From Anaerolineales bacterium (lineage in GTDB: Bacteria; Chloroflexota; Anaerolineae; Anaerolineales; JABWBV01): a stretch of 36,159 nucleotides of DNA. The notes beneath the pieces are model-generated. The model saw only the letters and a program-made list of their open reading frames with translations. It was not told where the DNA came from and did not search any database. The position numbers and the translations under genes are program-made. Each line of letters begins with the position of its first letter. Positions within the stretch are counted from its first letter, which is position 1. Below are positions 2,785 to 13,847 of this stretch, piece by piece. The stretch is taken from the NCBI GenBank assembly GCA_013359445.1, contig JABWBV010000005.1, forward strand, positions 1 through 36,159. The letters are read 5' to 3'.

Positions 2785-3055
2785 ATGATGTGTGCAATTC
2801 ATTTTGAAACCAATAGGTTCCTCCTGTCCAATACATGTCATGGATGGCAGGGCACTATGCAGAATCTGAGTTTGCACGATACGTTTACCAAAGCCGTCAG
2901 CGCATTTTTTATGCTGGCGGTTTTTTATTTCCTCAACGTTCTATCCCATGTCTATTGGGAAGGAGGTGCGCTGATAAAAAAGCATTTCAAACCCGTCTAC
3001 TTCGTTGGTCTTTTTCATCACCCCTTTAAAATCCATTACTTTAGGAGAATTCACC
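2785..3055 (+). other. Long glpF leader (about 270 nt)
   Basis: The gap between the regulator and glpF is 368 bases. It holds the operators, the promoter and this leader. The leader contains a terminator-like hairpin (2889-2927) and, at 2958-2966, a strong unused ribosome-binding sequence, AAGGAGGTG, with no start codon at proper distance. A 94-codon open frame crosses it but looks non-coding. Confidence 0.55.
2889..2927 (+). terminator. Terminator-like hairpin in the glpF leader
   Basis: AAAGCCGTCA and GCAT pair with ATGC and TGGCGGTTT, with a two-base GC bulge and a T-rich loop. Six T residues follow (2921-2926). It lies about 105-140 nt after the predicted start, so it could act as an attenuator or end a short leader RNA. 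Confidence 0.55.
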
Positions 3056-3760
3056 ATGTTCCTTGCTGAAATGTTCGGCACGATGACCCTCATCGTTCTT
3101 GGCGACGGTGTTGTCGCCAACGTATTGTTAGCCAAATCCAAAGGCCAGAACTCTGGCTGGATCGTCATTACCGCGGGCTGGGCGTTTGCCGTCATGAGCG
3201 GTATCTTCGTTTCTGCCGCCCTCGGAGGTCCAGGTAGCTTGAACCCGGCCTTCCAGGTTGCCTCCATTATTCAAGGCGGCGACGCTGGCGCGGCGATTCA
3301 AAATATCTTAGGCGAATTTGTCGGCGCATTCGTCGGCGCAATCCTCGTCTGGTTGTTGTACCTGCCCCACTGGGCTGAAACCAAAGATGCTGGCCTCAAA
3401 CTGGCCGTCTTCTCCACTGGCCCCGCGATCCGCAACCCAACCTTGAACCTGCTCACCGAAGTTATCGCCACCTTTATGCTGGGCTTTATTGCGACCGCAA
3501 TCGGCAAAGCAACCGGCGTCCCCGGCGGTGTTGGCCCCTATCTCATCGGTGCCTTAATCTGGGGTCTCGGTCTGTCCCTCGGTGGCCCCACCGGATATGC
3601 CCTCAACCCTGCCCGTGACCTCGGTCCCCGCATCGCGCACTTTGTTCTCCCCATCGCAGGCAAAGGCGACAGTGACTGGGCCTACTCCTGGGTTCCCGTG
3701 GTTGGCCCCATCATTGGCGCCATCATCGCCGGTTTCCTGGGCACAGCCATTTTCCCGTAA
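3056..3760 (+). CDS. glpF: Glycerol facilitator (aquaglyceroporin)
   Basis: A 234-residue MIP-family channel for passive glycerol entry across the cytoplasmic membrane. Both pore motifs are present: NPA at 63-65 and NPARD at 184-188. The Asp after the second NPA-Arg is the usual mark of glycerol-conducting members rather than pure water channels. Six hydrophobic segments are visible. Start: AGGAG at 3043-3047 is 8 bases before this ATG, whereas the longer in-frame start at 3005 has no ribosome site. It is the first gene after the operator/promoter block, and the kinases follow it, which supports glycerol as substrate. Confidence 0.93.
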   Translation: MFLAEMFGTMTLIVLGDGVVANVLLAKSKGQNSGWIVITAGWAFAVMSGIFVSAALGGPGSLNPAFQVASIIQGGDAGAAIQNILGEFVGAFVGAILVWLLYLPHWAETKDAGLKLAVFSTGPAIRNPTLNLLTEVIATFMLGFIATAIGKATGVPGGVGPYLIGALIWGLGLSLGGPTGYALNPARDLGPRIAHFVLPIAGKGDSDWAYSWVPVVGPIIGAIIAGFLGTAIFP

Positions 3761-3825: not shown

Positions 3826-4827
3826 ATGAAAAAATTGATCAATAGCCCCGAAAATGTTGTTCGCGAAGCTTTGGAAGGCATCGTTTACGCACACTCCGAT
3901 CTGGTCCGCGTCCACTATGACCCCAACTACATCGTCCGAGCCGATGCTCCTGTTCAGAACAAAGTCGGCGTGATCTCCGGCGGCGGAAGCGGTCACGAAC
4001 CCATGCACGGCGGTTTCGTCGGCATGGGGATGTTAGATGCGGCTTGCCCCGGGGCAGTGTTCACCTCCCCCACGCCCGACCAAATGCTCGAAGCAACCAA
4101 AGCCGTGAACGGCGGCAAAGGCGTCCTCCATATCGTCAAAAACTATACCGGCGACGTCCTCAACTTTGAAATGGCCGCTGATCTGGCCCGCGCCGAAGGC
4201 ATTGACGTTGAAGCCGTCGTCATTGACGATGATGTCGCTGTCAAAGATAGCCTGTACACCGCCGGACGCCGTGGCGTAGGCGCAACCGTCCTCGCCGAAA
4301 AACTGACTGGTGCGGCCGCCGAAGCCGGACGCTCCCTCGCAGAAGTGACTGATATTTGTAAAAAGGCCAATGGCTGGGGCCGCAGTATGGGCATGGCCCT
4401 TACCTCCTGCGCGGTTCCGCATGTTGGCAAACCCACCTTTGACCTGCCCGAAGATCAAATGGAAATCGGCATCGGCATCCACGGCGAACCGGGTCGTGTC
4501 CGCATGGACCTCAAATCCGCCGATGAAATCACCGAAATGTTGATGGACCCCATCATCACCGATCTCCCCTACAAAGCTGGCGACGAAGTTTTACTGTTCG
4601 TCAATGGCATGGGTGGAACCCCTCTCATTGAACTCTATGTCGTATACCGCAAGGCCTACGAAATCGCCACCAAGAGTGGTCTGAAAGTCGTCCGCAATCT
4701 GGTCGGCTCCTACATCACCAGCCTCGAAATGGCAGGCACCTCGATCACCATGCTCAAAATGGATGAGGATATGCTCAAACTGTGGGATGCACCCGTCAAA
4801 ACTGCCGCCCTCCGTTGGGGTGTATAA
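3826..4827 (+). CDS. dhaK: PEP-dependent dihydroxyacetone kinase, substrate-binding subunit DhaK
   Basis: At 333 residues it matches the DhaK family length. It binds dihydroxyacetone (Dha) covalently through a histidine, here His219 in GIGIHGEPG. The capping His57 is in GGGSGHEP. The E. coli equivalents are His218 and His56. DhaL carries the ADP that phosphorylates the bound substrate, and DhaM recharges that ADP to ATP from PEP. In E. coli, free DhaK also represses DhaR, so it may be both enzyme and sensor here. The ribosome site is weak (AAAAGGCG region), and a strong hairpin lies just upstream, suggesting lower translation than glpF. Confidence 0.95.
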
Positions 4828-4847: not shown

Positions 4848-4897
4848 GATTCACGCATCACGCCTCACCCACAACCTTGAAACGTGATGCGTGAATC
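4848..4897 (+). repeat. Palindromic repeat, family A, copy 1
   Basis: Perfect 15-base arms GATTCACGCATCACG (4848-4862) and CGTGATGCGTGAATC (4883-4897) lie in the dhaK-dhaL gap. Related sequence recurs at 5576-5628 and 9698-9759. Confidence 0.7.
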
Positions 4898-4932
4898 TCG
4901 AATTCTTAAAAATTCTCCTCAGGAACCTAAGC

Positions 4933-5568
4933 ATGACTATTCGTCAGGAAGATGTTCTCGCGTGGATCAAAACCTACGCTGGCATAATCGCAGAAAATAA
5001 AGAATACCTCACCCAACTCGATGCCGCCATCGGGGATGCGGATCATGGGGCCAATATGAATCGCGGTTTTCAAGCCGTCGTCGGAAAAATGCCCGAAATG
5101 GCAGACAAAGACATTGGCACCATCCTAAAAACCGTCGGCATGACCCTCCTCTCCACCGTGGGAGGCGCGGGTGGCCCGTTATACGGCACCCTCTTCCTCC
5201 AAGCTGGTATGAAAAGCGTCGGAAAAATGGAACTGACCCTGGAAGATTGGGCAACCATGCTCGACGCGGCTGTCAGTGGGGTCGTCATGCGCGGTAAAGC
5301 AGAATTGGGCGATAAAACGATGGTCGATGCCCTCACCCCCGCCGTGCAAGCTCTCAAACAAGCTTGCGAAGCCGGACTGGACATCCCCACCGCCCTTAAA
5401 AATTCTGCCACCGCCGCCCAAGAAGGGATGCAAAAAACCATCCCCCTTGTCGCCCGAAAAGGCCGCGCCAGTTATCTCGGTGAACGCAGTGCCGGACACC
5501 AAGACCCCGGCTCCACCTCCTCCTACTTCCTGATCAAAACTGCCGCCGACACCTGGGGAAAAGCGTGA
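4933..5568 (+). CDS. dhaL: PEP-dependent dihydroxyacetone kinase, nucleotide-binding subunit DhaL
   Basis: A 211-residue protein, equal to the usual DhaL length. The metal/ADP-binding motif LDAAIGDADHG supplies the three conserved Asp residues that hold Mg-ADP. Also seen are the glycine-rich loop around Gly-Gly-Ala-Gly-Gly-Pro-Leu and the late segment GERSAGHQDPGSTSSY. ADP is a fixed cofactor, rephosphorylated by DhaM. In E. coli, DhaL-ADP also activates DhaR. Start: the ATG at 4933 follows CAGGA with about 9 bases spacing; a longer in-frame GTG at 4891 lies in the repeat hairpin and has no ribosome site. Confidence 0.95.
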   Translation: MTIRQEDVLAWIKTYAGIIAENKEYLTQLDAAIGDADHGANMNRGFQAVVGKMPEMADKDIGTILKTVGMTLLSTVGGAGGPLYGTLFLQAGMKSVGKMELTLEDWATMLDAAVSGVVMRGKAELGDKTMVDALTPAVQALKQACEAGLDIPTALKNSATAAQEGMQKTIPLVARKGRASYLGERSAGHQDPGSTSSYFLIKTAADTWGKA

Positions 5569-5670: not shown

Positions 5671-7167
5671 ATGGCTAAATACGCTGCCGCAGTAGACCAG
5701 GGCACGACCAGCACCCGCTTCATGATCTTCGATCACAGCGGGAATGTCGTCGCCATTGACCAAATGGAACACGAACAAATTTACCCCAAACCCGGCTGGG
5801 TCGAACACGATCCGCTCGAGATTTGGGCGCGCACCCAGGATGTTATCCGGGGTGGCCTCAAAAAAGGGAATGTTGACCCCACCGACATCGCCGCCGTCGG
5901 CATCACCAACCAGCGCGAAACCGCTGTCGTTTGGGAAAAAGCTACCGGCAAACCCGTCTACAACGCGATTGTCTGGCAAGACACCCGCACCGACAAAATC
6001 TGCAACGAACTGGCCGCCGATGGTGGACAGGATCGCTTCCGCGAAAAAGTAGGCCTCCCGCTCGCCACCTACTTCTCCGGCCCGAAAATCAAATGGATTC
6101 TGGACAATGTGGAAGGCGCCCGCGAAAAAGCCGAAAAAGGCGAAATCATCTTCGGTAACATTGATACCTGGGTGATCTGGAACCTGACCGGCGGCCCCAA
6201 CGGCGGCGCACACGTCACCGATGTCACCAACGCCTCCCGCACCATGCTGATGAACCTCGAAACCCTCGACTGGGACGATGAAATCCTAGGCATTATGGGT
6301 GTCCCCAAGGCCATGCTCCCCACGATCAAAGCTTCCAGCGAAGTGTACGGGACCGCGGTCGGTTCCCTGGGTGGCGTCCCCGTTGCGGGCGACCTCGGCG
6401 ACCAACAAGCGGCCCTCTTCGGCCAGGCGTGCTACGACCCCGGCGAAGCGAAGAACACCTACGGCACCGGCTGTTTCATGCTCCTCAACACCGGCACCAA
6501 AGCCGTCCAATCCAAAAATGGCTTGCTCACCACCCTCGGCTACAAGATCGGCAATCAACCCGCCGTATATGCCCTGGAAGGCTCCATCGCCATCACCGGC
6601 GCACTCGTCCAATGGCTCCGTGACAACCTCGGCCTGATCGAAAAATCCGCCGATGTCGAAGCCCTCGCCAAAACCGTCGAAGACAATGGCGGCATCTACT
6701 TCGTCCCCGCCTTCTCCGGCCTGTTCGCCCCCTACTGGAAGAGTGATGCCCGCGGCGCTATCGTCGGCATGACCCGCTACGTCACCAAAGGCCACTTCGC
6801 CCGCGCCACCCTCGAAGCCACCGCTTTCCAGACCCGCGAAGTGTTGGATGCTATGAACAAAGACTCCGGCGTAGACCTCACCGCCCTCAAAGTAGACGGC
6901 GGCATGGTGTACAACGAACTGCTCATGCAATTCCAATCCGACATCCTCGGCGTGCCCGTCATTCGCCCGAAGGTTGCCGAAACCACCGCCCTCGGCGCGG
7001 CCTATGCCGCCGGGATGGCCGTTGGCTTCTGGAGCACCTACGATGAACTCCGCGCCAACTGGGGCAAGGACAAGGAATGGGATCCCCAAATGGATGCCAC
7101 CCACCGCGAAGCCCAATATGGCAATTGGAAGAAAGCCGTCACCCGCACCTTCGATTGGGTTGAATAA
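5671..7167 (+). CDS. glpK: Glycerol kinase
   Basis: A 498-residue FGGY-family kinase that makes sn-glycerol-3-phosphate from glycerol and ATP, trapping glycerol brought in by GlpF. Visible motifs are DQGTTSTR at the N-terminus (phosphate loop), [18 protein letters not shown] (substrate region), [17 protein letters not shown], and the C-terminal signature region around [14 protein letters not shown]. Length and motifs are complete. AGGAG at 5658-5662 lies 8 bases before the ATG. It is the last gene of the glpF-dhaK-dhaL-glpK unit, closed by the terminator at 7241. Its product is the substrate of the GlpA-type dehydrogenase encoded at 8536. Confidence 0.97.
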
Positions 7168-8535: not shown

Positions 8536-9693
8536 ATGAAACCCCAAGCCCTCATCATCGGAGCCGGATTTACCGGCGTCGCCACTGCTCACGACCTTGC
8601 CCTACGTGGGTTTGACGTCACCGTCGTGGAACGTGGCCCGATTGTCAACGGAACCTCTGGCCGCACCCACGGCCTTTTGCACAGCGGTGCGCGCTATGCC
8701 GTCAACGACAAAGAAGCCGCCATCGAGTGCATCGAAGAAAACACCCTCCTCCGCAAGCTCGTTCCCGATGTCATCGAACCGAACGGTGGCATGTTCATCG
8801 GCCTGAACGACGAAGATCTGGCCTATGGCGAAAAATTTGCCCCGGCCTGTGAAGAGGCAGGGATCGAAATTCACCAGATCACGCCCAAACGCGCGCTCGA
8901 ACTCGAACCCAACCTCAACTCCCAACTCCTCACTGCCTACCTCGTCCCCGACGCGACGTTTGACCCGCTCCGGTTGGCGCTCGCCTTTGCCGCGACGGCG
9001 AAAGCGAATGGGGCCAAATTCCACTTCTACTACGAGGTCACCGGGTTGGTGATGGACGGGCAGGGTAACGTGGCGGGGGTGAAATATTGGGATCGGGCCA
9101 ACGACCGCCGCGGCGAACTCCGCGCGGATGTGGTCGTCAGCGCGACGGGGGCCTGGGCGGGGGAGATCACCGCGATGGGCGGGGCACACGTCCCAATCAC
9201 CCCCACGCCCGGCGTCATGGTCGCCTACGATCAACGTCTGGTCGAACGGGCGATCAACCGGCTCACCAAACCGAGCGATGGCGACATCGTGCTTCCCCAA
9301 CGCCGAATGATGGTCGTTGGTACCACGTCGTTTTCCGCCGAAAATTTGGATTACATCCCCGTGGTGGAAGATCAGGTCAAGCTGATGATGGAAAAAGGCG
9401 CGGAGATGATCCCCGGCCTGCGCCAGACGAAGGAACGCGGGGCCTACATGGCAACCCGCCCCCTGATCGGCGCAACCGCCCCCGGACGCAGTATCTCCCG
9501 CACGTTCAAATGTTACGACCACAAGGAAACCGATAACGTGGATGGGTTTGTGACCATCACCGGCGGCAAGGCCACCACCCTCCGCCAGATGGCCGAAAAA
9601 ACCGCCGATGTCGTCTGTCACAAACTGGGCGTCACCACTCCCTGCCGGACGAAGGAAGTGACATTGTTGTCGTATCGGAAATTTTATGTATAG
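8536..9693 (+). CDS. glpA: FAD-dependent glycerol-3-phosphate dehydrogenase, GlpA type, short form
   Basis: A 385-residue DAO-fold flavoprotein that oxidises sn-glycerol-3-phosphate to dihydroxyacetone phosphate. The N-terminal FAD motif is IIGAGFTGVATAHDL (6-20), followed by the acidic end of strand 2 (VVERG). The segment GRTHGLLHSGARYAVNDKEAA is the hallmark of the GlpA group and differs from aerobic GlpD. A late FAD-contact motif is ITGGKATTLRQMAEKTAD. E. coli GlpA (about 540 residues) has an additional C-terminal redox domain; that is absent here. Electrons would therefore leave through a partner, and the next three genes encode an SdhB-like iron-sulfur protein and two SdhC/D-like anchors. 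Other DAO-type substrates cannot be excluded, but glpK and glpF nearby argue for glycerol-3-phosphate. Confidence 0.88.
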   Translation: MKPQALIIGAGFTGVATAHDLALRGFDVTVVERGPIVNGTSGRTHGLLHSGARYAVNDKEAAIECIEENTLLRKLVPDVIEPNGGMFIGLNDEDLAYGEKFAPACEEAGIEIHQITPKRALELEPNLNSQLLTAYLVPDATFDPLRLALAFAATAKANGAKFHFYYEVTGLVMDGQGNVAGVKYWDRANDRRGELRADVVVSATGAWAGEITAMGGAHVPITPTPGVMVAYDQRLVERAINRLTKPSDGDIVLPQRRMMVVGTTSFSAENLDYIPVVEDQVKLMMEKGAEMIPGLRQTKERGAYMATRPLIGATAPGRSISRTFKCYDHKETDNVDGFVTITGGKATTLRQMAEKTADVVCHKLGVTTPCRTKEVTLLSYRKFYV

Positions 9694-9697
9694 CTCC

Positions 9698-9759
9698 GTG
9701 AAGCGTGAAACGTGATTTTATAAATCATCACGCATCACGCATCACGTTTCACGCTTCAC
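9698..9759 (+). repeat. Palindromic repeat, family A, copy 3
   Basis: Perfect 19-base arms (9698-9716 and 9741-9759; left arm GTGAAGCGTGAAACGTGAT) surround a loop containing tandem ATCACGC words. A further TTCACGTTTC follows. It fills the gap between glpA and the SdhB-like gene. Confidence 0.7.
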
Positions 9760-9777
9760 AGTTCACGTTTCAAAACT

Positions 9778-10509
9778 ATGACCTCCAATCTCTGGAACCT
9801 CAAATTCCTCATCTCCCGCCAAAAAGGGGATGGGCCGACAAAATTTCAGGAATTTAGCCTGGAAATTGACCCGAACGAATACGTGCTCGACGCGGTGGAA
9901 CGCGTGTGGGCGTTTCAAGATCGCTCGTTGGTGTTCCGCCATGCCTGCCATCACTCGGTGTGTGGGGCGTGCGGAATGCGCGTCAACGGGGTCGAAAAAC
10001 TCTCGTGTATCACCCGCATTCGGGACATTACGACCAATGGCAGTACGGTTAAAGTCGAACCGCTTCGCAACTTCCCCGTCATTAGCGACCTGTCTGTGGA
10101 TATGGGCGCGATGTACGCCCGCCTGGAAAGCGTTGGGGCGAAACAAATTCTGTCCCTGTCTATCGCCCCCGTGAGCGAGGACGTGTATCCCGCTAAAAAC
10201 GGCAAAAGCGAGTTCAGCCGGTTGGTGGATTGCATTGAATGTGGCCTGTGCATCAGCGCGTGCCCCGTCGCCGCCACCGATGCCGACTATCTCGGCCCCG
10301 CCCCGCTCGCCGCCGCCCAACTGAACGGCCTCGCGGACAATCCCAAAACCGTGCTCGAGCTGGTGGACAGTGCCGAAGGCGTCTGGCGCTGTCATAGTGC
10401 GTATGAGTGTACCGCCGTCTGCCCGTCCAACGTTCAACCCGCGTGGCGGATCATGGATTTGCGAAAACAAGTGATCGGCCAGCGGATCAAGAACTTTTTT
10501 GGAAAATAA
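9778..10509 (+). CDS. SdhB/FrdB-type iron-sulfur subunit next to GlpA
   Basis: A 243-residue electron-transfer subunit of the succinate dehydrogenase/fumarate reductase kind. The N-terminal ferredoxin domain has the [2Fe-2S] ligands Cys57, Cys62, Cys65 and Cys77 in the spacing usual for SdhB. The C-terminal domain has CIECGLCISACP (152-163) for [4Fe-4S], and Cys205, Cys211 and Cys215 in CHSAYECTAVCP for the [3Fe-4S] pattern. This is not GlpC, which has two [4Fe-4S] sites and heterodisulfide-reductase-like cysteine domains. There is no SdhA flavoprotein in the window; the flavoprotein directly upstream is GlpA-type. The stop codon is 1 base from the next start, so coupling with the membrane subunit is likely. 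A moonlighting role with an SdhA encoded elsewhere cannot be excluded. Confidence 0.88.
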   Translation: MTSNLWNLKFLISRQKGDGPTKFQEFSLEIDPNEYVLDAVERVWAFQDRSLVFRHACHHSVCGACGMRVNGVEKLSCITRIRDITTNGSTVKVEPLRNFPVISDLSVDMGAMYARLESVGAKQILSLSIAPVSEDVYPAKNGKSEFSRLVDCIECGLCISACPVAATDADYLGPAPLAAAQLNGLADNPKTVLELVDSAEGVWRCHSAYECTAVCPSNVQPAWRIMDLRKQVIGQRIKNFFGK

Positions 10510-10510
10510 T

Positions 10511-10894
10511 ATGCTTAAGCCTCCTCAAAAACCCTCCGACGCCTGGAAATGGTTCGACCCGCGCGGGCGCGAACCCGGTTCGTGGGCGTTCATCATCAAT
10601 CGTTTGTCGGCCCTGGGCTTGACCGTTTATCTCTACTTGCATTTGAGCGTCCTGGGAAAACTCGCGCAAGGCCCGGAAGCCTACGATAGTTTCGTTCACC
10701 TGGCCGAATCCCCAGTCGTGATTCTCGGTGAATTGCTCGTCATTTTTGCCGCGCTGTATCACGGCCTCAACGGCTTGCGGATCGCCCTCACCAGCTTTGG
10801 GATCGCCGTGCCCTACCAACGGCAACTTTTTTACGTCATCTTTCTGCTGACCATTCTCGGCAGTGTGATCTTCGCCGTGCGTATGTTTACGTAA
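10511..10894 (+). CDS. SdhC-like cytochrome b membrane anchor
   Basis: A 127-residue protein with three predicted membrane helices (about 27-48, 63-87 and 103-124). Helix 1 has the Arg-Leu-Ser stretch and His of the SdhC start (NRLSALGLTVYLYLHL). Helix 2 holds ALYHGLNGLRIAL, the His-x3-Gly-Leu-Arg pattern that carries heme b ligands in SdhC/SdhD proteins. It should anchor the iron-sulfur subunit and form part of the quinone site. Start: the ATG one base after the upstream stop; a TTG at 10499 would overlap the upstream gene. Confidence 0.8.
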   Translation: MLKPPQKPSDAWKWFDPRGREPGSWAFIINRLSALGLTVYLYLHLSVLGKLAQGPEAYDSFVHLAESPVVILGELLVIFAALYHGLNGLRIALTSFGIAVPYQRQLFYVIFLLTILGSVIFAVRMFT

Positions 10895-10917
10895 CCATTC
10901 AGGCAAATTGTAAAGAA

Positions 10918-11283
10918 ATGACCACTTCTCCCAAACCCACCGAAAACGCCTTCCTCTGGCTGACAAAAATCATCAGCGGCGTCCTTATCATTGTCATTCT
11001 CATCCTCCATCTCATCGTCAACCACTTTACCGCGCCCAATGGTCTGCTCAGCTATGCGGAAGTTGTCGCCTATTACCAAAACCCGCTCATCCCGATCATG
11101 GAAGGCTTTTTCCTGATCTTCGTCGTCACCCACTCGTTGATCGGCCTGCGAAGCATCCTGCTTGATCTCAAACCCACCCGGTCGGCGATGAATATCATCG
11201 ACGGCGGCTTAACCCTCTTTGGGTTGGTCGCCATTGTCTATGGTATTTGGCTCCTTTTCGCAATTGCACAGAATCCTATTTAA
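10918..11283 (+). CDS. SdhD-like membrane anchor
   Basis: A 121-residue protein with three predicted membrane helices (about 13-38, 56-84 and 90-115). Helix 1 has two His (LHLIVNH), and helix 2 has THSLIGLRSILLDL, again the His-x3-Gly-Leu-Arg pattern followed by Asp, as in SdhD. With the preceding protein it makes a two-chain, six-helix anchor, the usual plan for a quinone-linked complex with heme b. It is 23 bases after the SdhC-like gene and belongs to the same operon as glpA and the SdhB-like gene. Its function is inferred from position and helix pattern. Confidence 0.78.
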   Translation: MTTSPKPTENAFLWLTKIISGVLIIVILILHLIVNHFTAPNGLLSYAEVVAYYQNPLIPIMEGFFLIFVVTHSLIGLRSILLDLKPTRSAMNIIDGGLTLFGLVAIVYGIWLLFAIAQNPI

Positions 11284-11354: not shown

Positions 11355-13847
11355 ATGGTCGGACTTGTCCTCGTTTCACATAGCCGTGCGCTCGCCCACG
11401 CCCTCCTCGCCCTCGCGCGTCAAGTGGCATCCCCAGAAGTTCCGATTGCCGTCGCCGCCGGCGTCGGCACAGACCGTCTGGAGTTTGGCACCGATGCTGT
11501 CGAAATCCACGACGCCATCGAAAACGTTTACAGCGCCGATGGGGTGCTTGTGCTCATGGATTTGGGCAGTGCCATCCTCAGCGCAGAAATGGCGCTGCAA
11601 CTCCTCCCCCCCGAAAAACACGCGCACATCCGGTTTTGCCCAGCCCCCCTTGTTGAAGGCACCATCACCGCAGCGGTTCAAGCCGGGTTAGGCAATTCAC
11701 TCGATACCGTCTTCACGGAAGCCAGTCAAGCGCTCCTCCCCAAACTGGAGCAACTCGGCGGTGCCCCCGCCCCAACCTCTGCCCCGCTCCCCACCACCGG
11801 GCAAGAAATCACCCTCGCCCTCCGCACCGCACACGGCCTGCACGCCCGCCCCGCCGCAAAATTTGTCCAAACCGCCGGGCGTTTCGATGCCACCATTTTC
11901 GTCCGCAACCAAACCACGGGCAAAGGCCCGGTTTCAGCCAAAAGCCTGAACGCACTCGCCACGTTGGGAGCACTGTTCGGGCATGAAATCACCATCGTCG
12001 CAGATGGGCCCGACGCTTCCAACGCCCTCGCCGCGTTGACCCACCTCGTGCAGGATAATTTTGGCGAACGCGAATCGTCCGCAAGCCCCACCCCCCATCG
12101 CGAACCCCACCCCACGCAGGAGGCCCTCCCCCTTCAAAACGGCGCCCTGCCCGTTGTTGCCATCTCCGAAGGCATCGCACTCGGCCCGCTCGCCCGATTG
12201 GTGGCCCCCCCTCCAACCGTGCCCGAACACCCAACGGACAACCCAGCCCTGGCCTGGGATCGGTTTGAAGCCGCCCTGGCGCAAGTATCGCAGGACATTC
12301 GGACTCGCCGCGACAACGTCGCCGCCCGCGCCGGGCGCGAAGAAGCCGGGATTTTTGACGCCCACCTGCTCATCCTCAACGACCCCGACCTGCTCACGCA
12401 AGCCCAAACCCAAATCACCGCCCACGGAATGAACGAAGCCCACGCGTGGCACACCGCCATTCAGACTGCCCAGGCCGCCTACCTCGCCCTCGACGATCCC
12501 TATCTCCGACAGCGCGCCGCCGACGTGGGGGATGTGGGCGAACAGGTGCTCCGCGCCCTGCTCGGCGAGGACACCGCCCCCCTCACCTTCTCCACCCCCG
12601 TCATCCTCGCCGCCGAAGACCTGACCCCCACGCAAACCGCCCAACTCGACATCACGAACGTGCTCGGACTGGCGACGGTTTTGGGCGGACCCACCTCCCA
12701 CAGTGCGATCCTCGCCCGGTCGCTCGGCATTCCCGCCGTGAGCAGTGCGCCGCAAACGATCATGGCCCTCGCAGAGGGCACCCTGATCGGGCTGGACGGT
12801 GGGCGCGGGGGCTTGTGGGTTTCTCCTTCAGAATCCGTTCAAGCCGAGTTGAATGCCCGCCGGGAAGCGTGGTTGGCACAACGGGCGCAGTGGCGGCAAA
12901 CCAGCCAACAACCCGCCCTCACCACCGATGGACACCCCATCGAAATCGTCGCCAACGTCGGCAATCTGGCCGATGCCCGCGCCGCGATGGAAAACGGGGC
13001 CGAGGGTATTGGCCTGCTCCGCACCGAATTTTTGTTTCTCTCCCGCACGACCGCCCCGGACGAGGACGAGCAGTACCACGCGTTGCGCGACATTTTTGAG
13101 ACGATGGGAGACCGCCCCGTGATCGTCCGCACGATGGACGTGGGGGGCGATAAACCGCTCGCGTACATCTCCCAACCCGTCGAAGCAAACCCATTTTTGG
13201 GCGTGCGCGGCCTCCGACTCTCGCTCCAGCGCCCGGATTTGTTCTCCACCCAACTGCGGGCTATTTTACGCGCGGGGGAGGGCTACCCGGTTCGCATCAT
13301 GTTCCCGATGGTTTCGAATGTGGATGAAGTGCTCCGCGCCCGTCAAATCCTGTCCGAGACCCACACCATGCTCGAAACCGAAGGTCTCCCCCACGCCTGG
13401 CCGGTGGAGACGGGCATCATGATCGAAGTTCCCTCTGCCGCGTTGCTGGCCCCGATCCTGGCTCCGCACGTGGACTTTTTCAGCGTCGGGACAAACGATC
13501 TGACCCAATACACCCTCGCCGCCGAACGGGGCAACCCCAACCTGCCGGGGTTTGCCGATGCCCTGCACCCTGCGGTGTTGAAGTTGATCTGGCAAGTGGC
13601 GGAAGCGGCCCGCGCGGCGGGAAAATGGGTGGGCGTGTGCGGCGAATTGGCGGGGGATCCCGTCGCGGCCCCGGTGTTGATCGGGTTGGGGGTCAAAGAG
13701 TTGAGTTTGAATCCAGCAGGGATTCCAAGAATCAAGGCGGTGGTCCGAAAATCCACCTTTGCCGAGGCACAGACCTTTGCCCAAACTGTGCTTTTGGCAG
13801 AAGATGCGCCGTCTGCTCGCAAGCTGGCTGAAAATTTCCTGGTATAA
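11355..13847 (+). CDS. dhaM: DhaM multiphosphoryl transfer protein with complete enzyme I
   Basis: An 830-residue PTS protein in three parts. The EIIA(mannose)-type DhaM domain (1-135) has phospho-acceptor His9 in LVSHS. The HPr domain (about 150-240) has His163 in HGLHARPAA. Enzyme I (about 265-830) has His449 in GGPTSHSAILARS, the PEP-binding TIM-barrel motifs GLLRTEFLF, GTNDLTQYTLA and active Cys762 in VCGELAGD. It passes phosphate from PEP to the ADP held by DhaL. E. coli DhaM (about 470 residues) has only the first part of enzyme I and relies on general PTS proteins; here the PEP-binding domain is fused, so the protein should work alone. It lies 71 bases after the SdhD-like gene with no terminator between. 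Confidence 0.93.
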   Translation: MVGLVLVSHSRALAHALLALARQVASPEVPIAVAAGVGTDRLEFGTDAVEIHDAIENVYSADGVLVLMDLGSAILSAEMALQLLPPEKHAHIRFCPAPLVEGTITAAVQAGLGNSLDTVFTEASQALLPKLEQLGGAPAPTSAPLPTTGQEITLALRTAHGLHARPAAKFVQTAGRFDATIFVRNQTTGKGPVSAKSLNALATLGALFGHEITIVADGPDASNALAALTHLVQDNFGERESSASPTPHREPHPTQEALPLQNGALPVVAISEGIALGPLARLVAPPPTVPEHPTDNPALAWDRFEAALAQVSQDIRTRRDNVAARAGREEAGIFDAHLLILNDPDLLTQAQTQITAHGMNEAHAWHTAIQTAQAAYLALDDPYLRQRAADVGDVGEQVLRALLGEDTAPLTFSTPVILAAEDLTPTQTAQLDITNVLGLATVLGGPTSHSAILARSLGIPAVSSAPQTIMALAEGTLIGLDGGRGGLWVSPSESVQAELNARREAWLAQRAQWRQTSQQPALTTDGHPIEIVANVGNLADARAAMENGAEGIGLLRTEFLFLSRTTAPDEDEQYHALRDIFETMGDRPVIVRTMDVGGDKPLAYISQPVEANPFLGVRGLRLSLQRPDLFSTQLRAILRAGEGYPVRIMFPMVSNVDEVLRARQILSETHTMLETEGLPHAWPVETGIMIEVPSAALLAPILAPHVDFFSVGTNDLTQYTLAAERGNPNLPGFADALHPAVLKLIWQVAEAARAAGKWVGVCGELAGDPVAAPVLIGLGVKELSLNPAGIPRIKAVVRKSTFAEAQTFAQTVLLAEDAPSARKLAENFLV

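Follow-up and report, generated by a model that had tools for sequence, protein, structure and literature searches.

The window, by which we mean the whole stretch of DNA analysed here, is 36,159 nucleotides of contig JABWBV010000005.1 from an Anaerolineales bacterium (Chloroflexota). Its + strand carries a glycerol catabolic cluster that contains four consecutive genes, glpA-sdhB-sdhC-sdhD, at 8536-11283. We propose, at a probability of roughly 85%, that their products form a membrane-bound glycerol-3-phosphate (G3P):quinone oxidoreductase, GlpA-SdhBCD. The four genes are:

8536..9693, + strand: glpA, a short GlpA-type flavin adenine dinucleotide (FAD) G3P dehydrogenase of 385 amino acids (aa) without BFD domain (TIGR03377, 422 bits)
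9778..10509, + strand: sdhB-like iron-sulfur protein of 243 aa with ligands for [2Fe-2S], [4Fe-4S] and [3Fe-4S] clusters (TIGR00384, 169 bits)
10499..10894, + strand: sdhC-like membrane anchor with heme-ligand candidates H48 and H88 (PF01127, 4.7e-14)
10918..11283, + strand: sdhD-like membrane anchor with heme-ligand candidates H31 and H72; H36 is invariant too (PF01127, 1.8e-9)

The start of sdhC overlaps the 3´ end of sdhB and is probably TTG at 10499 or ATG at 10511. A preliminary description of the locus had noted a GlpA without its usual C-terminal redox domain, an SdhB-like three-cluster protein, two anchors with the pattern His-x3-Gly-Leu-Arg, and the lack of SdhA, GlpB and GlpC, and these points hold. 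GlpA aligns only to positions 2-377 of the 530 in TIGR03377, a model that E. coli GlpA covers as a whole; the window's GlpA thus lacks the C-terminal third, where the BFD iron-sulfur ([2Fe-2S]) domain lies. The SdhB-like protein has the eleven cluster cysteines, which are invariant in 53 module sequences. At position 208, a cysteine could make the third cluster [4Fe-4S]; 51 of the 53 have A, S or H there, and the window has no Cys. H-x3-G-L-R is found in both anchors, at H88 of SdhC and H72 of SdhD. The cluster holds no sdhA and no glpB, nor a GlpC, which was looked for at the cluster only and not genome-wide. GlpB was not found genome-wide (best match 26 bits over 30 FAD-fingerprint positions, against a cut-off of 174) in the host assembly, which is 95% complete (G000; 7.04 Mb, 822 contigs, 6.6% contaminated).

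In the proposed enzyme, GlpK would produce G3P, the FAD of GlpA would oxidise it to dihydroxyacetone phosphate, and electrons would pass through the [2Fe-2S], [4Fe-4S] and [3Fe-4S] clusters of the SdhB-like subunit to a quinone, probably menaquinone, at SdhC/D. GlpA would fill the role of SdhA, and SdhBCD would do the work of GlpB, GlpC and the BFD domain found in canonical GlpA. Complex formation, activity, acceptor and hemes are predictions. The potential of the G3P/dihydroxyacetone phosphate couple is ~-190 mV and that of menaquinone ~-74 mV, so menaquinone-linked oxidation of G3P would be downhill without help from a proton gradient and the reverse reaction is unlikely.

At the cut-offs used, just four columns split GlpA-linked from SdhA-linked SdhB: H55 and H58, which stand beside the [2Fe-2S] ligand C57; E73, which lies between ligands three and four; and E154 beside the [4Fe-4S] ligands. 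The [2Fe-2S] side of SdhB faces the flavoprotein in complex II, and changes on that side therefore fit a changed partner. Each anchor has its candidate heme histidines in helices I and II. SdhC H48 and H88 and SdhD H31 and H72 are kept in 98-100% of 42 relatives, the SdhD histidines being invariant. Four anchor histidines are the two-heme pattern of type A/B complex II, and those of SdhC/D appear positioned for two b hemes.

The association of the two genes was followed in a sample of 298 genomes of the class, searched with SdhB and, reciprocally, with GlpA. SdhB matches form two groups, at ~39-66% and ~30% identity. GlpA matches also form two, one of 53 genomes at 557 bits or more that reach the model end and one of 92 genomes that score at most 507 bits, with frames that are mostly ~520-640 aa long; the window type is thus present in 53 of 145 GlpA-bearing genomes (about one third). 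The order glpA-sdhB-sdhC-sdhD is kept in all 30 of the best 30 relatives, and many families share it. Window-type GlpA and window-type SdhB each occur in 53 genomes and together in 52 (52 of the 54 with either); the exceptions are contig-end cases, the contig stopping 9 bases past the GlpA match in G065 and just upstream of sdhB in G112. GlpA is immediately upstream of window-type SdhB in 45 of the 53 genomes, three more are cut by contig ends, and in the other five, all from one family, GlpA is encoded at another place in the genome. This pairing is plainly far beyond chance, and the Fisher p value of ~6e-56 is too small, as it counts genomes as independent though they are not.

Outside the class, 9 of 400 genomes of the phylum have window-type SdhB (E 1e-75 or better), and GlpA adjoins it in all nine. 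Named carriers include Leptolinea sp. HRD-7 (a complete genome), Thermoflexus, Promineifilum, Thermanaerothrix and a Dormibacterota metagenome-assembled genome (MAG), and the many carriers, the complete genome among them, rule out an oddity confined to one MAG. Among 398 Thermoproteota genomes, 44 have GlpA and eight the short type; seven of the eight read glpK-glpA-sdhB-sdhC-sdhD, and a contig end truncates the eighth locus. Two MAGs labelled Actinomycetota (L073 and L078) carry the GlpA-SdhB type; in the class of L073, no other genome among 297 has it. This occurrence may reflect mis-binning or transfer, and we do not claim presence in that phylum.

Phylogeny points to a shared history of the two subunits. 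In a GlpA tree of 83 rows, every GlpA linked to SdhB, whether from Bacteria or Archaea, falls into a single clade (100/99); 24 long canonical GlpA and the CoxG type lie outside it. A tree of 72 SdhB rows likewise joins all GlpA-linked SdhB, bacterial and from Thermoproteota, in one clade (100/100), and places outside it 19 SdhA-linked SdhB, most of them sampled for being near. Over 15 loci, distances correlate at 0.83 between GlpA and SdhB, against 0.26 between GlpA and GlpK. The archaeal rows are sister to all bacterial rows in the GlpA tree, but in the SdhB tree they sit on a long branch beside Anaerolineaceae, a difference that may be a long-branch effect or the result of transfer. Both trees support a single origin of the GlpA-SdhB pair.

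Two further lines of evidence bear on physical pairing. In locus L073, one of the two MAG loci labelled Actinomycetota, GlpA and SdhB share one frame of 734 aa, in which each half matches its own family and a linker of ~66 residues rich in Ala, Pro, Ser and Thr joins them; no ATG immediately precedes the SdhB half. The linker is 79% G+C and stop-free in every forward frame, so that the open frame is less telling, and a sequencing cause in the MAG may apply. The glpA and sdhB genes of the window are in the same frame, and their read-through was folded as a single chain with AlphaFold from 30 paired rows. The mean predicted local distance difference test score (pLDDT) was 85.8 and the predicted template modelling score (pTM) 0.88, with a disordered junction. 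The ceiling for unplaced partners is ~0.6 (the share of the larger protein, 385/657), and the model thus predicts that the two proteins are placed against each other. A GlpK-GlpA control of the same design gave a mean pLDDT of 86.9 and a pTM of 0.58, that is, no placement; it had only three paired rows, as few relatives have both genes in one frame, and unpaired rows were added for this reason. We therefore take the comparison as support and not as a strict test.

The preliminary description had placed GlpA in the position of SdhA on an SdhBCD arm, and the separate complex II of the host (see below), the co-inheritance of the two clades and the fusion frame all favour this placement. Two of the checks that it had named, the gene order in relatives and a model of the GlpA/SdhB interface, gave a widely conserved order and the predicted placement at pTM 0.88.

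The architecture is already known from prediction. Archaea related to Thermofilum have been described, from their synteny and phylogeny, as carrying sdhB, C and D after glpA, and a GlpA-SdhBCD complex has been drawn for them (Fig. 9b in Schmerling et al., 2025; PMC11962113). The remark in the preliminary description that no described enzyme of this composition was known is therefore wrong for Archaea, as GlpA-SdhBCD was predicted for Thermofilum pendens (PMC11962113). The archaeal complex was predicted and not assayed, and the same study describes bacterial glpA as consistently found with glpB and glpC (Schmerling et al., 2025; PMC11962113). We found no other paper that names GlpA-SdhBCD and none that describes it in Chloroflexota, preprints and most subscription papers being outside the search. 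The window thus represents a bacterial member of an architecture already predicted in Archaea. What is new is the bacterial spread, the evidence for a single origin and tight pairing of GlpA and SdhB, the fusion frame, and the relatives without anchors described below.

The T. pendens type resembles the window in having a short GlpA followed by sdhB, sdhC and sdhD without glpB or glpC, and the Thermoproteota loci fall within the window's GlpA and SdhB clades; these loci most likely represent the T. pendens lineage, T. pendens itself not being confirmed in the set. The window differs in being bacterial and in having these genes within an operon that also holds glpF, dhaKLM and glpK. E. coli GlpABC has a homologous catalytic domain and catalyses the reaction predicted for the window enzyme, but the window has no BFD domain, no GlpB and no cluster-borne GlpC resembling heterodisulfide reductase, and its electrons would instead travel via the SdhB clusters and SdhCD. 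With complex II (succinate dehydrogenase/fumarate reductase), the window shares the three-cluster SdhB and the two heme-type anchors with four histidines. It differs in its flavoprotein, a GlpA of the DAO family, in the lack of SdhA/FrdA in the operon, and in the four columns that set its SdhB clade apart. The GlpA-CoxG of Sulfolobus acidocaldarius has a related GlpA without BFD domain, the nearest group in the GlpA tree, but is CoxG-anchored (PMC11962113), longer (~430-446 aa) and without SdhB beside it.

In other genomes of the same class, a third GlpA type, likewise short (~390 aa, 430-468 bits) but distinct from the SdhB-linked one, follows etfB-etfA in the glycerol operon (L258:251-3232, +; L259:3103-6147, -; L260:375-3554, +). 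This arrangement suggests a G3P dehydrogenase that hands electrons to the electron-transfer flavoprotein (ETF), and we found no paper on it. Canonical-type GlpA also occurs in frames of ~900-1250 aa (L214, L226 and others; G030, G055, G127), probably fused to further subunits.

Several observations weigh against the proposed membrane-bound enzyme. No source that we found reports a purified or assayed enzyme of this composition, and the predicted fold rests on a read-through chain with a control of few paired rows. Of 199 genomes from the Desulfovibrio class, six carry a short GlpA with adjoining SdhB and no sdhCD beside them (93 genomes have other, mostly long, GlpA), and two Spirochaete MAGs have glpA-sdhB without adjoining sdhCD. 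Such pairs are found at L091:4533-6738, L106:4476-6828, L209-L212, L082:1671-3676 and L119:4736-6609, in Nitratidesulfovibrio-like and Spirochaete genomes. In the five genomes of family f7 (G293, G156, G003, G073, G284), GlpA and SdhB are unlinked and no sdhCD was seen adjoining either. The anchors are thus not strictly required by the GlpA-SdhB pair.

These loci, those of family f7 included, are what supports the best of the alternatives, namely that GlpA-SdhB is a soluble or peripheral two-subunit dehydrogenase, with SdhCD as an optional anchor and possibly an acceptor other than quinone. We consider it unlikely for the window, where sdhCD follow directly, as they do in nearly all Chloroflexota and archaeal loci, with invariant heme histidines. 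Moreover, the anchorless forms nest inside the anchored bacterial group in both the GlpA and the SdhB tree, so that the loss of adjoining sdhCD looks secondary. It is still less probable that the substrate is another 2-hydroxy or amino compound. The DAO superfamily is broad, but the GlpA-specific model scores 422 bits against at most 78 for glycine oxidase or GlpD models, the substrate-region residues match those of E. coli GlpA, and the operon also encodes proteins that take up and phosphorylate glycerol. In the FAD and substrate region, G9, G11, R53, Y54, R308, K345, T348 and R350 are invariant between window-type and canonical GlpA; the FAD motif is kept, and R53, Y54, R308, K345, T348 and R350 are shared with a GlpD-like protein too. 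A Foldseek search against the PDB re-identified the GlpA half as G3P dehydrogenase/oxidase and gave nothing further. Finally, we reject as the least probable reading that sdhB, C and D, recognisably complex II-like as they are, serve an ordinary succinate dehydrogenase and stand beside glpA incidentally: a complete sdhC-sdhD-sdhA-sdhB operon lies apart from the window on contig C820 of the host, and its SdhA has its own B, C and D so that no orphan SdhA requires the window's genes (the preliminary description had suggested looking for such an operon), the close relatives G202, G271 and G089 likewise retain a separate sdhCDAB, and the window's SdhB clade excludes all sampled SdhA-linked SdhB and occurs only with the window type of GlpA.

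The genes and features around glpA-sdhBCD in the window are:

687-2687, + strand: gene for a sigma-54-type activator
3005..3760, + strand: glpF-like aquaglyceroporin (MIP; PF00230)
3826..4827, + strand: dhaK (PF02733)
4891..5568, + strand: dhaL (PF02734)
5671..7167, + strand: glpK, glycerol kinase, for substrate supply (TIGR01311, 760 bits)
between glpK and glpA, + strand: a small methyltransferase gene and a PfpI-family gene
9698..9759: perfect 17-base inverted repeat CACGTTTCACGCTTCAC, a strong RNA hairpin (-31.6 kcal/mol, z -7) that fills the glpA-sdhB gap (9691-9777)
11355..13847, + strand: dhaM-HPr-EI fusion, phosphoryl donor of dihydroxyacetone kinase (TIGR02364, PF00381, TIGR01417)

The last of these encodes DhaM, HPr and enzyme I as a single protein (11355-13847) and closes the glycerol operon directly after sdhD. 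In one genome of family f7, SdhB sits between glpK and dhaL (L190:352-3597). The hairpin could possibly control the expression ratio or be a dispersed palindrome; no second copy of the inverted repeat was found anywhere in the window. Elsewhere in the host genome, a GlpD-like G3P dehydrogenase of 534 aa is encoded (G000:C578:8064-9179, -; L131). The window enzyme is therefore not the sole possible G3P oxidase of the cell, and a second G3P route may exist.

In conclusion, we describe a bacterial glpA-sdhBCD cluster whose products probably form a respiratory G3P dehydrogenase. We lean slightly towards the wider view that GlpA-SdhBCD is a separate and old class of respiratory dehydrogenase across Bacteria and Archaea, in which the complex II chassis took a flavoprotein of another family once and was then inherited as a unit with some anchor loss and subunit fusion. 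GlpA would accordingly be a catalytic head coupled to at least four acceptors (GlpBC, SdhBCD, a CoxG-anchored system and ETF). In Bacteria, as in Archaea, the complex II electron-transfer arm would be able to work with a flavoprotein that is not SdhA, contrary to the published statement that bacterial glpA consistently goes with glpBC. Automated annotation likely labels these SdhB, C and D as succinate dehydrogenase, and metabolic reconstructions of Chloroflexota would be misled by such labels. The complete genome of Leptolinea sp. HRD-7 makes the activity, the hemes and the interface of the predicted enzyme directly testable.

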